From: Streptococcus suis
Lineage (GTDB): Bacteria; Bacillota; Bacilli; Lactobacillales; Streptococcaceae
Reading direction: 5' to 3'
DNA: 64,000 bases
NCBI GenBank assembly: GCA_022354845.1
Contig: CP031970.1
Location: 1,054,001-1,118,000 of the forward strand
Shown here in pieces: positions 8,175 to 63,079 of the stretch. The notes under the pieces were generated by a model. That model was not told the DNA's origin. It searched no databases and saw only the letters and a program-made list of their open reading frames with translations. Within the stretch, counting starts at the first letter, position 1. Each line of letters begins with the position of its first letter. A program made the position numbers and the translations under genes.

Positions 8175-8183
8175 TGCTATAAT
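8175..8183 (+). promoter_or_regulatory. Extended -10 promoter for plsY, predicting a leaderless mRNA
   Basis: TGCTATAAT is a perfect extended -10 element. Only six bases (GAAACT) separate it from the plsY ATG, so the expected start site, seven bases downstream, is the A of the ATG. No clear -35 and no Shine-Dalgarno are present. Confidence 0.6.
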
Positions 8184-8189
8184 GAAACT

Positions 8190-8831
8190 ATGTTAAAGAT
8201 TGTATTACTATTCATTACTGCCTACTTATTAGGCTCAATACCATCTGGTCTTTGGATTGGACAAGCGTTTTTTAATATCAATATTCGTGACCATGGATCT
8301 GGCAATACGGGAACAACTAATACATTTCGGATTCTGGGACCAAAAGCAGGGACAGTTGTATTTATTGTTGATTTCTTAAAAGGAACCATAGCAGCCCTTT
8401 TACCTATTCTTTTCCATGTGCAAGACATTTCACCAATCGTTTTCGGTCTTCTAGCTGTTCTAGGACATACCTTTCCAATTTTTGCTCAATTTAAGGGTGG
8501 AAAGGCTGTTGCTACGTCTGCAGGAATGCTTTTGGGAGTTGCACCTGCATTTTGCCTCTATCTAGTAATCGTTTTCGCAGTATCCCTTTATTTGACGTCT
8601 ATGGTCTCTTTCTCCAGTGTCTTTTCAGCCGGCTTAGCCATTTTGGGAGTCTTAGTCTTTCCAGCATTTGGATTCCTCATTGATGAATATGATTGGATAT
8701 TTACACTGATTATTGTCTTCCTCGGACTCTTTGTGATTATCCGTCATAAAGAAAATATCAAACGAATTCTTCGCAATGAAGAAAATTTAGTCCCCTTTGG
8801 ATTGAACCTAACGAAACAAAAGAAAAAATAG
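8190..8831 (+). CDS. plsY: Acyl-phosphate:glycerol-3-phosphate acyltransferase
   Basis: PlsY (213 aa) transfers an acyl group from acyl-phosphate to glycerol-3-phosphate, the first step in phosphatidic acid synthesis, in the membrane. The family motifs are visible: [11 protein letters not shown] near the N-terminus, [13 protein letters not shown] at about residues 34-46, and [19 protein letters not shown] at about 91-110. Several hydrophobic helices span the rest. It is divergent from parE, the usual streptococcal order. The ATG lacks any ribosome site and sits six bases after a consensus extended -10, so translation is probably from a leaderless transcript. Confidence 0.95.
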
Positions 8832-9159: not shown

Positions 9160-9168
9160 TGATATACT
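9160..9168 (+). promoter_or_regulatory. Extended -10 promoter placed for a leaderless mRNA
   Basis: TGATATACT ends six bases (AATTGT) before ATG 9175, the same spacing as at plsY. No Shine-Dalgarno precedes the ATG. Confidence 0.5.
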
Positions 9169-9174
9169 AATTGT

Positions 9175-10031
9175 ATGAAAACATTAACACTTGGAAAACT
9201 ATTAGATTACCAAATATTCATCATTTTTATTCGGTTCCTGTGAAGAGACTTGAGCATACCGCAGACAATTATATACTTGTTTTTAAACAGGATAAAGAAC
9301 TTGTTTTTGTCGACTTAGAAAGTGAGACCGGAAAGACTCAGGAAGCTAGATTTGCTAGTCATTTTCAGAACGATCATCTGTTAATCGGTTTGGGAGCAAT
9401 TCCTGTTTCTGCATGGTCTACCTGTCAAGTCCTTGAAGTAAGTAAAAATACTAATCAACGAGGAGTCAGTCTCTCACATATGATGGAAAGCCACGGACAA
9501 TTACCTATTTTTAAGTCAATAGCAGAGCAATATCGAGCACGTGAACAAGCAACAGTTTATGATCCCTACCGCTACTCCTACACTGTTGATGAGAAATCTG
9601 CTATTAAAGACAATCAATTAAAAATCATTCCTAGAAAAGAATATGAAAAAATAAAAGATTTTCATCCCTTTTTGAAAACAAGACATGGAAATGTTTATGC
9701 TGTTCCCTGCCTCTATCAAGACATAAAACGAAAGCAAGTGACTAAGATTTATATCATGGGATGGTATTTTTATGAAAAACAACTGAAAATATCTTGGAAG
9801 CCATCTCATACAAGAAAAAGTCGATGGCGTTCCTCACTTCTTTCTGTTGATAAACTGTCGGACCGCTACTTCTTCCAAGGTGAATTGTACAAGAAAGGCT
9901 CATATCCAGTTTTTCTAGACCAGCTAACAATAAAAAATAAGGCTTACCAACAACGTCTAGACGACGAGTTTGCAGCCTTTATAAGTATCATTGAAAATCA
10001 AAAACAAAAAGCGCAGCTCCGTTTGAGATAA
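9175..10031 (+). pseudogene. Unknown protein gene with an N-terminal frameshift
   Basis: The expected ATG at 9175 opens MKTLTLGKLLDYQIF but stops after 22 codons (TGA). One base to the other side, a frame runs uninterrupted to 10031 and contains HHFYSVPVKRLEHTADNYIL onward, about 280 residues. Adding one T to the T5 run near 9224 joins the two into a single ~285-residue protein. The body is charged and soluble, with aromatic-rich patches (DRYFFQGELYKKGSYPVFL) and no motif I recognise. Either a true frameshift or a one-base assembly error. A TTG at 9171 could start the long frame but lacks a ribosome site. Confidence 0.55.
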
Positions 10032-28518: not shown

Positions 28519-29358
28519 TTAAATTGCTAAATCGAATTTTAACTGCGGTTTAACTGGATTGTAGTCCACCAACTCAAAATCTTCTGCTTTAATATCAAAA
28601 AAATTTGTTCCGTCTGGGACGTTGAGCACTAAACGAGGCTCAACTTCTGAAGGAGTCCGACGTAGCAATTCTTCAGCTTGTTCAAACTGGTTGTCATAGA
28701 TATGAAGATTGTTGATGAAATAGAAAAACTTCCCAACCTTCCAGCCGAAATGTTTAGCAATCATCATCTGAAGGGCTACATACTGCATCGCATTGATATG
28801 ATGGGCAACCAACATATCATTTGATCGTTGAGTAAGGGTTGCGTCCAGATAAATGTCCCCATCCACTCGTCGAACGTCAAACATGGTCTGAAAGGCACAT
28901 GGCAACAGACCTGCAGATTGGTCAAAAGCCTCATAGTCCCATAACGAAATGACATTGCGGCGATTCCAAGGATTTTCTTCCAATTGTTTGAGAATCTTGG
29001 AAATGATGTCATGCTTCTTAACAATAGCACCATAGCGTTCGCCAATCGTGCCGGTTCCTTCCACTTCCCAGTCATTCCAATACTGGACACCGTACTTTTC
29101 TTGTAAAACAGACAAGTCATTGGTCTGGTCTTGGTAAATCCAGAGAATTTCTTTAATGGATGACTTGATTGGGATAGGTCTTAATGTAGTAATAGGGAAC
29201 TCGCCCTTGGCCAAGTCATACTCTGCAAAGGAACCAGTAATGTATTTGGAATTGGCTATATTCCCATCCTTGTAACGGGGGCGAGCATTTTCTGAAAAAA
29301 CGCCCTCTTCCATAATCTTACGAATGTTTTCTTTAAAAATACTATCTGCTTTTGTCAT
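28519..29358 (-). CDS. thyA: Thymidylate synthase
   Basis: ThyA (279 aa) makes dTMP from dUMP with methylene-tetrahydrofolate. Active-site Cys lies in [31 protein letters not shown] and [14 protein letters not shown] are conserved. The start [13 protein letters not shown] matches relatives. There is no Shine-Dalgarno: an extended -10 (TGCTATACT) ends six bases before the ATG, predicting a leaderless mRNA. Confidence 0.96.
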
Positions 29359-29364
29359 AGTTTT

Positions 29365-29373
29365 AGTATAGCA
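29365..29373 (-). promoter_or_regulatory. Extended -10 promoter of thyA, leaderless spacing
   Basis: TGCTATACT on the minus strand, then AAAACT, then the ATG. A weak -35 (TGGAGT, 29393-29388) is the 3' arm of the upstream terminator, with its T run as spacer. Confidence 0.6.
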
Positions 29374-45140: not shown

Positions 45141-45168
45141 AAAAAAATCTCCAAAAACGGAAGATTTT
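45141..45168 (-). terminator. Terminator of nth
   Basis: AAAATCTTCC / GGAGATTTT around a T-rich loop, followed by TTTTTTG on the minus strand; it overlaps the nth stop. Confidence 0.7.
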
Positions 45169-45791
45169 TAATCAAATTTATATAATTGCGGATATTTGTG
45201 ACACTCAGGATTCTTTGGATGGCATACTTCTCTTCCAAAATAAATCATCGCCTGATGAGCTGGAAGCCAGAGTTCAGGAGGTAAGACTTCCATGACTCGT
45301 TTTTCTGTTTCCAGGGGTGTAGCCGATTTTTTGACAATATCGTGGTGTTTACAAATCCGTCCCACGTGGGTATCAACTGCAAAGGCTGGGATTCCGAAAC
45401 CGACACTTAAGACAACATTGGCCGTTTTTCTTCCCACTCCTGCCAGAGCTTCTAATTCCTCACGAGTCTGCGGAACAATGCCATTATGCCGTTCAATCAA
45501 CTGCTGGGCACAGTCTTTTAAAAACTTTGCCTTGTTTCGGTACAAACCCAAACGAGAAATATAAGGCTCAATATCCTTCACTTCTGCTACCGCCATGGCT
45601 TGGGGCGTAGAGAAAGCTGCGAACAAACCAGGTGTTGCCTTATTCACCGCAGCGTCTGTAGTTTGAGCAGAAAGTAACACAGCGCACAACAGCTCGAAAT
45701 GATTATGAAAATCCAAACTAGGTTTGGCATCAGGATAGAGTGCAATAATTTCTTCAATAACTTTTCTAGCACGTTTTTTTGATAATACCAT
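45168..45791 (-). CDS. nth: Endonuclease III
   Basis: Nth (207 aa) is a base-excision glycosylase/AP lyase for oxidised pyrimidines. HhH motif with catalytic Lys, ALAGVGRKTANVVLS, and catalytic Asp in FAVDTHVGRI. The C-terminus reads CHPKNPECHKYPQLYKFD: only two of the four Cys of the usual [4Fe-4S] loop are present, so the cluster is probably absent. The start MVLSKKRAR has no Shine-Dalgarno; TGTTATAAT ends six bases before the ATG, predicting a leaderless mRNA. Confidence 0.94.
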   Translation of the reverse strand: MVLSKKRARKVIEEIIALYPDAKPSLDFHNHFELLCAVLLSAQTTDAAVNKATPGLFAAFSTPQAMAVAEVKDIEPYISRLGLYRNKAKFLKDCAQQLIERHNGIVPQTREELEALAGVGRKTANVVLSVGFGIPAFAVDTHVGRICKHHDIVKKSATPLETEKRVMEVLPPELWLPAHQAMIYFGREVCHPKNPECHKYPQLYKFD

Positions 45792-45797
45792 AAAACC

Positions 45798-45806
45798 ATT
45801 ATAACA
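45798..45806 (-). promoter_or_regulatory. Extended -10 promoter of nth, leaderless spacing
   Basis: TGTTATAAT on the minus strand, then GGTTTT, then the ATG. No clear -35. Confidence 0.6.
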
Positions 45807-62274: not shown

Positions 62275-63030
62275 TCACTCCTTCAAACGAATTTCTCCAT
62301 AATGAAATTTTTGACTGGGTCTTACATGACGTTTAAAGCCAAATTCTTCAAAAACACTGTCTCTGAAATGAGCCTTGACAAGAATTTTTTCCCTTGCAAC
62401 CCGTTTTGCCTCAAGAAGCAACTCTTTTGACAATCGACTTCCGTCAGCCATCTGCACTAAACCAGAAAGATTGTTTGATTCCTTGATTTCTTCTGAAAAC
62501 ATGGGATCAAAGTAAATGACATCAACAGAGTTATCTATTTGTTCTTTCAGATAGGTCAAACTATCTATCCATTTGGTTTGAATGGATCGCATAGCACAAT
62601 CCACCAGCACATTACTACTGTTGAAATCCTGTAAACCACGACTAACAATAAAATGAATAAGCCGTGAACTCTCCAAGGATGTCACCTGATGACCTGCACT
62701 AGCTAATACAATACTATCAGAAGCTAGTCCCATGGTACAATCTAAAATCGTTTTCTTTGATGGCCCAATTAGATCTAATAGCGGATCATGTCCTGCTTTT
62801 ATTCGCAACATCGCTGTGTCAGGGTGGAAAAAGAAGGTTTGACCATTTCTCTGCTCTAAAACAAGCTTATTTTGATAGAGCACAAGCACCTTTTCTACTT
62901 CTTTTAATAACGACGAAACGGACCGCTTGTTTCTTTTCAAGTATTCTATACCTAAATCCTCAGCCAGCTGTTTCGCCTTTGCAACAAGATTATCGTCCAT
63001 CCTCAGACTCGTAGTGATTATTACTTTCAT
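62275..63030 (-). CDS. Class I SAM-dependent methyltransferase (RsmJ/YpiP-like)
   Basis: A 251-residue protein with an N-terminal domain (residues 1-75), an AdoMet-binding block [19 protein letters not shown] and [10 protein letters not shown] as the catalytic D-P-x-F motif, which points to RsmJ-like rRNA guanine methyltransferases; the substrate is inferred. ATG 63030 ([13 protein letters not shown]) has no Shine-Dalgarno; a -10 element ends nine bases upstream, so the mRNA leader would be about three bases. Confidence 0.8.
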
Positions 63031-63039
63031 ACTGTATCT

Positions 63040-63068
63040 AGTATACTCAAAAAACAGAATGAACTCAA
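63040..63068 (-). promoter_or_regulatory. Promoter of the methyltransferase-pcp transcript inside the carB terminator
   Basis: TTGAGT (63068-63063), 17 bases, TATACT (63045-63040) on the minus strand. The -35 is mostly the loop of the carB terminator and the T run is part of the spacer. Confidence 0.6.
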
Positions 63069-63079
63069 CATTCATCCTG
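63050..63079 (-). terminator. Terminator of carB
   Basis: CAGGATGAA / TTCATTCTG (one mismatch-like G-T pair) with a seven-base loop, followed by TTTTTT on the minus strand, 14 bases past the carB stop. Confidence 0.8.

Follow-up and report, generated by a model that had tools for sequence, protein, structure and literature searches.

The four motif sites and their genes

The window, by which the whole 64-kb stretch analyzed here is meant (positions 1054001-1118000 of G000, a Streptococcus genome made up of a single contig of 2.03 Mb), contains four 18-base matches to the pattern TGNTATAMT-N6-ATG, which are located at 8175-8192 and 9160-9177 on the forward strand and at 29356-29373 and 45789-45806 on the reverse strand, with no others. 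An earlier note on this DNA had singled out precisely these four sites, and its list proved exact; only 0.06 matches are expected in the window, and none of 100 shuffles reached four. At each site a TGn lies directly 5' of the -10 hexamer, as the search pattern requires, and the six-base spacing positions the -10 box for a transcription start (+1) on the start codon.

Three of these sites precede genes whose proposed names, plsY, thyA and nth, are all upheld by scores above the curated NCBIfam cut-offs. The gene plsY, encoding a glycerol-3-phosphate acyltransferase (8190..8831, +; TIGR00023, 171.6 bits against a cut-off of 137.2), follows the extended -10 element TGCTATAAT at 8175..8183 (+) and is predicted to be leaderless, with its +1 at the A at 8190. 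The thymidylate synthase gene thyA (28519..29358, -; NF002495, 519.9 bits against a cut-off of 327) lies behind the element TGCTATACT at 29365..29373 (-), and its predicted leaderless transcript would begin with the A at 29358, while nth, coding for endonuclease III (45168..45791, -; TIGR01083, 233.8 bits against a cut-off of 211.7), is preceded by TGTTATAAT at 45798..45806 (-) and has its predicted leaderless +1 at the A at 45791. All three genes start with ATG, and the lack of a Shine-Dalgarno (SD) sequence that had been reported for them was borne out, no SD match of at least 4 bases being detected at any of the three.

The fourth site fits less well into the gene list of the earlier note, in which it had stood beside plsY, thyA and nth as a gene at 9.2 kb. 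Its extended -10 element TGATATACT is located at 9160..9168 (+), but the predicted leaderless ATG at 9175 opens merely 22 codons (9175..9243, +), which leave the frame of the parent gene early and then run into a stop. This ATG is out of frame with a 286-codon open reading frame (ORF) at 9171..10031 (+), the body of the frame-broken gene, which occurs in 4 of the 30 genomes searched, G000 included, and matches no NCBIfam or Pfam family at an E value of 0.001. At the same place in the close relatives G013, G015 and G021, TGTTATACT-N6-ATG opens an intact gene, so the signal belongs to a leaderless-type gene that is broken in G000.

Spacing and start codon specificity

Counted over the whole of G000, the pattern TGNTATAMT-Nx-ATG yielded 6, 7, 32, 20, 5 and 7 sites at N4, N5, N6, N7, N8 and N9, respectively (77 in total), and N7 is a second enriched spacing beside N6. 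The genome thus carries a mean of 1.0 N6 site per 64 kb, and the occurrence of four in one window is somewhat lucky (Poisson P 0.02). The looser pattern TATAMT-N{0,30}-ATG showed no excess in the window, with 49 matches against 42.6 in shuffles, which indicates that the TG and the fixed spacing are what matter.

The same preference was observed throughout the genus. Among 98 sampled Streptococcus genomes, 2756 N6 sites were found (mean 28.1 per genome, range 16-60), whereas the reversed pattern gave 175 (mean 1.8), and the N6 count exceeded this control in all 98; for N7 the figures were 1521 sites (mean 15.5) against 242 (mean 2.5). When the six bases were followed by GTG or TTG instead of ATG, the counts in these 98 genomes stayed at background (587 versus 559 for the reversed pattern, means of 6.0 and 5.7), and in 27 Streptococcus genomes N12 gave a mean of 5.2 where N6 gave 28.3, from which it follows that both the spacing and the ATG are specific. 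The claim that the sites form a defined class and are not a product of chance is thereby sustained by a sharp N6/N7 peak that is restricted to ATG and rises above the control in every Streptococcus genome sampled.

The methyltransferase gene at 62 kb, which had been described as similar, was excluded from the class. Its site at 63028..63045 (-) reads TATACT-N9-ATG without an adjoining TG before the box and marks an internal start, at 63030, in the frame of the methyltransferase-like gene 62275-63075 (PF04445, 61.9 bits); the N9 spacing, with its 7 sites, is not enriched and stays at the level of N4, N5 and N8.

Sequence features of the genes behind the motif

A reading frame no shorter than 60 codons begins at 37 of the 52 N6/N7 sites of G000, compared with 2 of 13 at N4, N5, N8 and N9 (Fisher 4e-4; 13 of the 25 sites with these control spacings were scored). 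With the limit set at 50 codons, 39 of the 52 sites qualify, and these constitute the 39-gene set used below, of which some of the shortest frames, matching no family, may be non-genes. The other 13 sites open ORFs shorter than 50 codons, and the motif alone therefore yields false positives. Two N7 sites, at G000:C1:1189496 and 1657273, share the same motif and near-identical upstream sequence, and each is followed by a 2-codon frame; they are probably copies of a repeated element and, as leaderless genes, false positives.

SD sequences are nearly absent from this set. Under a rule that requires 3-13 bases between SD and ATG and leaves strings abutting the ATG uncounted, an SD 4-mer was scored at 2 of the 39 genes, namely GGTG at rsmD and a GTGA that overlaps the -10 box, while the GGAG-like strings of two other genes, which reach or almost reach the ATG, were left out of the score. 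In a 364 kb sample of G000, by comparison, an SD of at least 4 bases precedes 271 of 328 genes, which is an upper figure because the picking of starts favours SD.

The base immediately before the ATG provides a further signature. In G000, G011 and G087, a pyrimidine occupies position -1 in 38 of 39, 30 of 32 and 27 of 29 genes, respectively (37 of the 39 N6/N7 sites of G087 being covered); this amounts to 95 of 100 genes over the three genomes, and G never occurs there. Among N6/N7 sites with frames below 50 codons the proportion is 19 of 36 (P 5e-8 against the pooled genes), and among the SD-led genes of G000 it is 99 of 178 (P 7e-8 against the genome's own 38 of 39). Bacterial RNA polymerase usually prefers an initiator with a pyrimidine at -1 and a purine at +1, and the bias observed is what a start on the A of the ATG should produce. 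From the first T of the box to this A, the N6 and N7 spacings give 12 or 13 bases. No -35 signal could be detected in the 39 genes, the mean number of matches to TTGACA being 2.64 of 6, compared with 2.56 +/- 0.14 in shuffled sequence, with a single gene reaching 5 or more.

Conservation of the individual genes

The earlier note had regarded the absence of the spacing from related species as evidence against its reading, and on this point the result is mixed, since the arrangement is kept by plsY in 30 of 30 Streptococcus genomes, whereas thyA has it in 9 and nth in 4. In the case of plsY, TGnTATAAT stands 6 bases (29 genomes) or 7 bases (1 genome) before the ATG, and by the 3-13-base rule an SD was found in none of the 30 genomes. 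The plsY spacer of G001, G012 and G028 contains an AGGAG that nearly touches the ATG, and in many relatives a second ATG follows the first immediately (ATGATG).

For thyA, the N6 box is present in G000 and 8 of the 29 other genomes, and in all of the remaining 21 an SD of at least 4 bases was found. Among the best 80 of 226 matching named thyA loci, the N6 box is seen at 20 and an SD at 60, and no locus is devoid of both; at 3 of the 20, as well as in G009, the scored SD is a GTGA that overlaps the box. The twelve named loci with the highest thyA scores all come from Streptococcus suis, at 94-98%, which places G000 within or near that species complex. In a tree built from the PlsY and ThyA proteins, the nine genomes with leaderless-type thyA occupy one side of one branch (support 85/87), and the split, which corresponds to one change, is present in 86% of the bootstrap trees. 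A single switch between the SD-led and the leaderless form is consequently enough to explain the predicted state of thyA in the 30 genomes, and several independent switches were dropped as an explanation for this placement of the nine genomes. The switch would have run from SD-led to leaderless, as suggested by the occurrence of SD-led genomes to either side of the midpoint root. Thus, thyA offers a clean natural experiment, in which one passage between the two modes of initiation accounts for 30 genomes.

The N6 arrangement of nth is limited to G000, G013, G015 and G021. The other 26 genomes comprise 22 with an SD match of at least 4 bases and 4 with none, and the identity of the best nth match does not exceed 44-45% in five of these 26. 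Neither thyA nor nth was scored as an operon head by the rule used, and a read-through transcript from the preceding same-strand genes could also provide either of them with a leader.

Distribution beyond Streptococcus

The sample of Streptococcaceae outside Streptococcus comprised 37 genomes of seven genera. In three of these genera (g54, g59 and g60), 47-84 N6 sites per genome were counted over 29 genomes, which is about twice the number in Streptococcus; four genomes of one further genus have 21-26 sites, and four genomes of the three genera g56-g58 have 1-8. In eight other families of the order (171 genomes), N6 averages 4.2 sites, compared with 2.6 for the control; the family means range over 2.9-6.3 with controls of 0-3.5, and the highest of them, among families with more than one genome, is 6.3 against 2.2. 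On these motif counts the leaderless class would be largely a feature of the Streptococcaceae.

Gene content of the set

The 39 genes include eight of DNA repair or recombination (ruvB, recG, dinG, mutY, nth, uvrC, ligA and polA; recG, dinG and polA are cut by the end of a stretch and have partial scores, which for recG and polA are below the cut-off) and at least five of RNA modification (tadA, rsmD, truB, rlmB and tsaE). Three further genes are trhP-like, rsmC-like and trmN-like, with scores below the curated cut-offs, and the others include plsY, thyA, hslO, yaaA, hemW, birA, ylxM, a Tex-like gene and an MscS-like channel. Among 29 random putative operon heads taken as background, none belongs to repair or RNA modification (Fisher test: 0.008 when repair is taken alone, 2.6e-4 when the five RNA-modification genes are added); these are 29 of 30 sampled, rsmD itself with a longer start having been left out.

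The set is in part shared with distant genomes. After one paralogue-like hit in each genome was set aside, 15 of the 32 leaderless-type genes of G011 and 13 of the 29 of G087 have a blastp homologue in the G000 set, and the overlap of 15 compares with 0.8 expected for random sets when 1500 genes are assumed.

Two loci deserve separate mention. At L032 (G000:C1:383449-383466, -), the ORF behind a leaderless-type N6 start has 116 codons and encodes the helix-turn-helix domain of an IS630-type transposase; it is perhaps a mobile element making use of the leaderless arrangement. At L188 (G011:C1:166586-166634), two divergent leaderless-type genes are preceded by N6 promoters placed back to back within about 50 bases.

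Proposed mode of expression and alternatives

A defined leaderless class is the best reading of the motif and is supported by the sharpness of the spacing, the restriction to ATG, the link to ORFs and the pyrimidine at -1. It is accordingly held to be highly probable that plsY, thyA and nth, together with the 9.2 kb gene in the relatives where it is intact, are leaderless genes with their +1 on the A of the ATG. We infer the following course of events. The housekeeping sigma factor would read the extended -10 element TGnTATAMT in promoters with no recognisable -35 element, and RNA polymerase would begin at the A of the start codon, which lies 12 or 13 bases 3' of the box's first T. An mRNA that starts in this way would open with 5'-AUG and be free of an SD; the ribosome, probably an undissociated 70S particle, would then bind this terminal AUG directly, a route that is taken from the literature. 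These genes would form part of a conserved Streptococcaceae leaderless set, with up to 39 members in G000 by the strict motif.

One of the alternative views goes further and regards the leaderless starts as a functional regulon, in which genes of genome maintenance and RNA modification would be kept leaderless so as to shift together in translation with the initiation machinery, for instance with the IF2/IF3 ratio, the availability of 70S ribosomes, cold or stress. The abundance of repair and RNA-modification genes relative to the operon heads and the overlap with the distant genomes G011 and G087 speak for it. However, the functional test was chosen after the list had been seen; the background is small, relies on a crude operon-head rule and is unnamed in 14 of 29 cases, with a stricter naming threshold (1e-25 versus 1e-10 for the 39-gene set). 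Moreover, plsY, thyA, birA, hslO, the MscS-like channel and the transposase-like gene do not fit, and the conservation may simply reflect that an indel cannot be accommodated between box and ATG. The idea is accordingly rated as rather improbable, and slightly less credence still is given to its more specific form, in which the conserved Streptococcaceae set would be a translational regulon, serving genome maintenance as well as RNA/ribosome modification and acting through shared 5'-AUG mRNAs. If it were true, one change in the initiation machinery, perhaps ribosomes lacking the modifications made by the products of these genes, would shift all of them together; and if the bias toward repair and RNA modification holds, the question becomes what leaderless initiation does for such proteins.

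A second alternative accepts the promoters as real and places the true translation starts further downstream, behind ordinary leaders. The tandem ATGATG in plsY of many relatives could be read in this way, as could the ATG at 9175, which does not start an intact gene in G000. This proposal was judged to be very unlikely, because the placement of promoters alone leaves unexplained an N6/N7 excess that is specific to ATG and disappears with GTG or TTG. The thyA data also weigh against it: the protein matches begin at residue 1 in 29 of 30 genomes, and where the N6 box is missing from thyA an SD stands before the same ATG, in all 60 such loci among the best 80 of the 226 named ones and in 21 of 21 genomes. 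Chance, by which AT-rich spacers would often bring an ATG near a TATAAT, could draw on the near-background count of the loose motif in the window and has practically no standing left, being rejected by the shuffles, the reversed pattern, the other spacings and the GTG/TTG starts, with four extended N6 sites where 0.06 were expected, 28.1 against 1.8 per Streptococcus genome and low N6 means in the eight other families.

With the leaderless reading retained, leaderless genes of low-GC bacteria such as those considered here should be readable from sequence with fair confidence, provided that TGnTATAMT, six to seven bases, ATG, a pyrimidine at -1 and an open frame occur together, and such a signature would fix start codons and promoters without RNA data.

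Comparison with known leaderless systems

The pneumococcal DpnII operon, described by Sabelnikov, Greenberg and Lacks in 1995, is reported to be transcribed from the start codon by an extended -10 promoter without a -35 element, and it would be a single-operon counterpart of the class considered here.

Transcript mapping in streptococci has disclosed many more cases. According to the published accounts, S. pyogenes has 67 leaderless mRNAs (8.6%; PMC6431027), S. agalactiae 78 (8-9%; PMC4448216) and S. pneumoniae D39V 70 leaderless operons (9%; PMC6212727), with 54 common to S. pyogenes and S. agalactiae and 39 to all three species (PMC6431027, PMC4448216, PMC6212727). As far as these accounts go, the mRNAs mapped by dRNA-seq or Cappable-seq begin, as is predicted for the present class, at or beside the start codon and have a leader too short for an SD (PMC4448216, PMC6212727, PMC6431027), and in S. 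pyogenes and S. agalactiae they are transcribed, as would be the case here, from sigma-70 promoters with an extended -10 element (PMC6431027, PMC4448216). The leaderless transcripts of S. agalactiae are reported all to use AUG, and 90% of them to start at its A (PMC4448216); in S. pyogenes, 93% of the mapped starts are given as 11-13 nt from the predicted box (PMC6431027), where the counting end is not stated and the first base of the box is assumed; the 12 or 13 bases of the N6 and N7 spacings would then fall within this range. At the leaderless start of pbp2A in S. pneumoniae D39, an added ribosome binding site is described as leaving the luciferase output unchanged (PMC6212727), and the 70S ribosome on a 5'-AUG is quoted from other work as the route of translation (PMC6431027). 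The word leaderless is absent from the main text of the TIGR4 paper (PMC6296669). The mapped class is described as strongly conserved between species and is known there from 5' ends, whereas the class here is predicted from sequence.

One gene differs in its mode of initiation between the present genome and a mapped relative. In S. agalactiae, thyA is reported to have a mapped 12-nt leader with an SD and to undergo reiterative transcription (PMC4448216), in contrast with the leaderless start predicted here, and the SD-led state of that gene fits the direction suggested above for the switch.

Zheng et al. (2011; PMC3160421) also predicted leaderless genes, using a -10-like signal close to the start, and they point out that in several low-GC genomes this box is preceded by TG. 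Their prediction for the Lactococcus-Streptococcus clade agrees with the concentration of the class in the Streptococcaceae, and over all genomes with leaderless genes they find these to be biased toward information storage and RNA processing; for the streptococcal genes specifically, no functional bias is stated in the open-licence literature searched or in the available text of PMC6431027. Compared with that study, the specificity of the spacing, of the ATG and of the -1 base was here tested separately, and conservation was followed gene by gene.

A leaderless class has thus already been published in streptococci, and the finding made in the window is right but mostly known. The present analysis adds to it the pyrimidine signature at -1, the specificity for ATG and spacing over 98 genomes, the single switch proposed for thyA and a functional bias that was identified post hoc.
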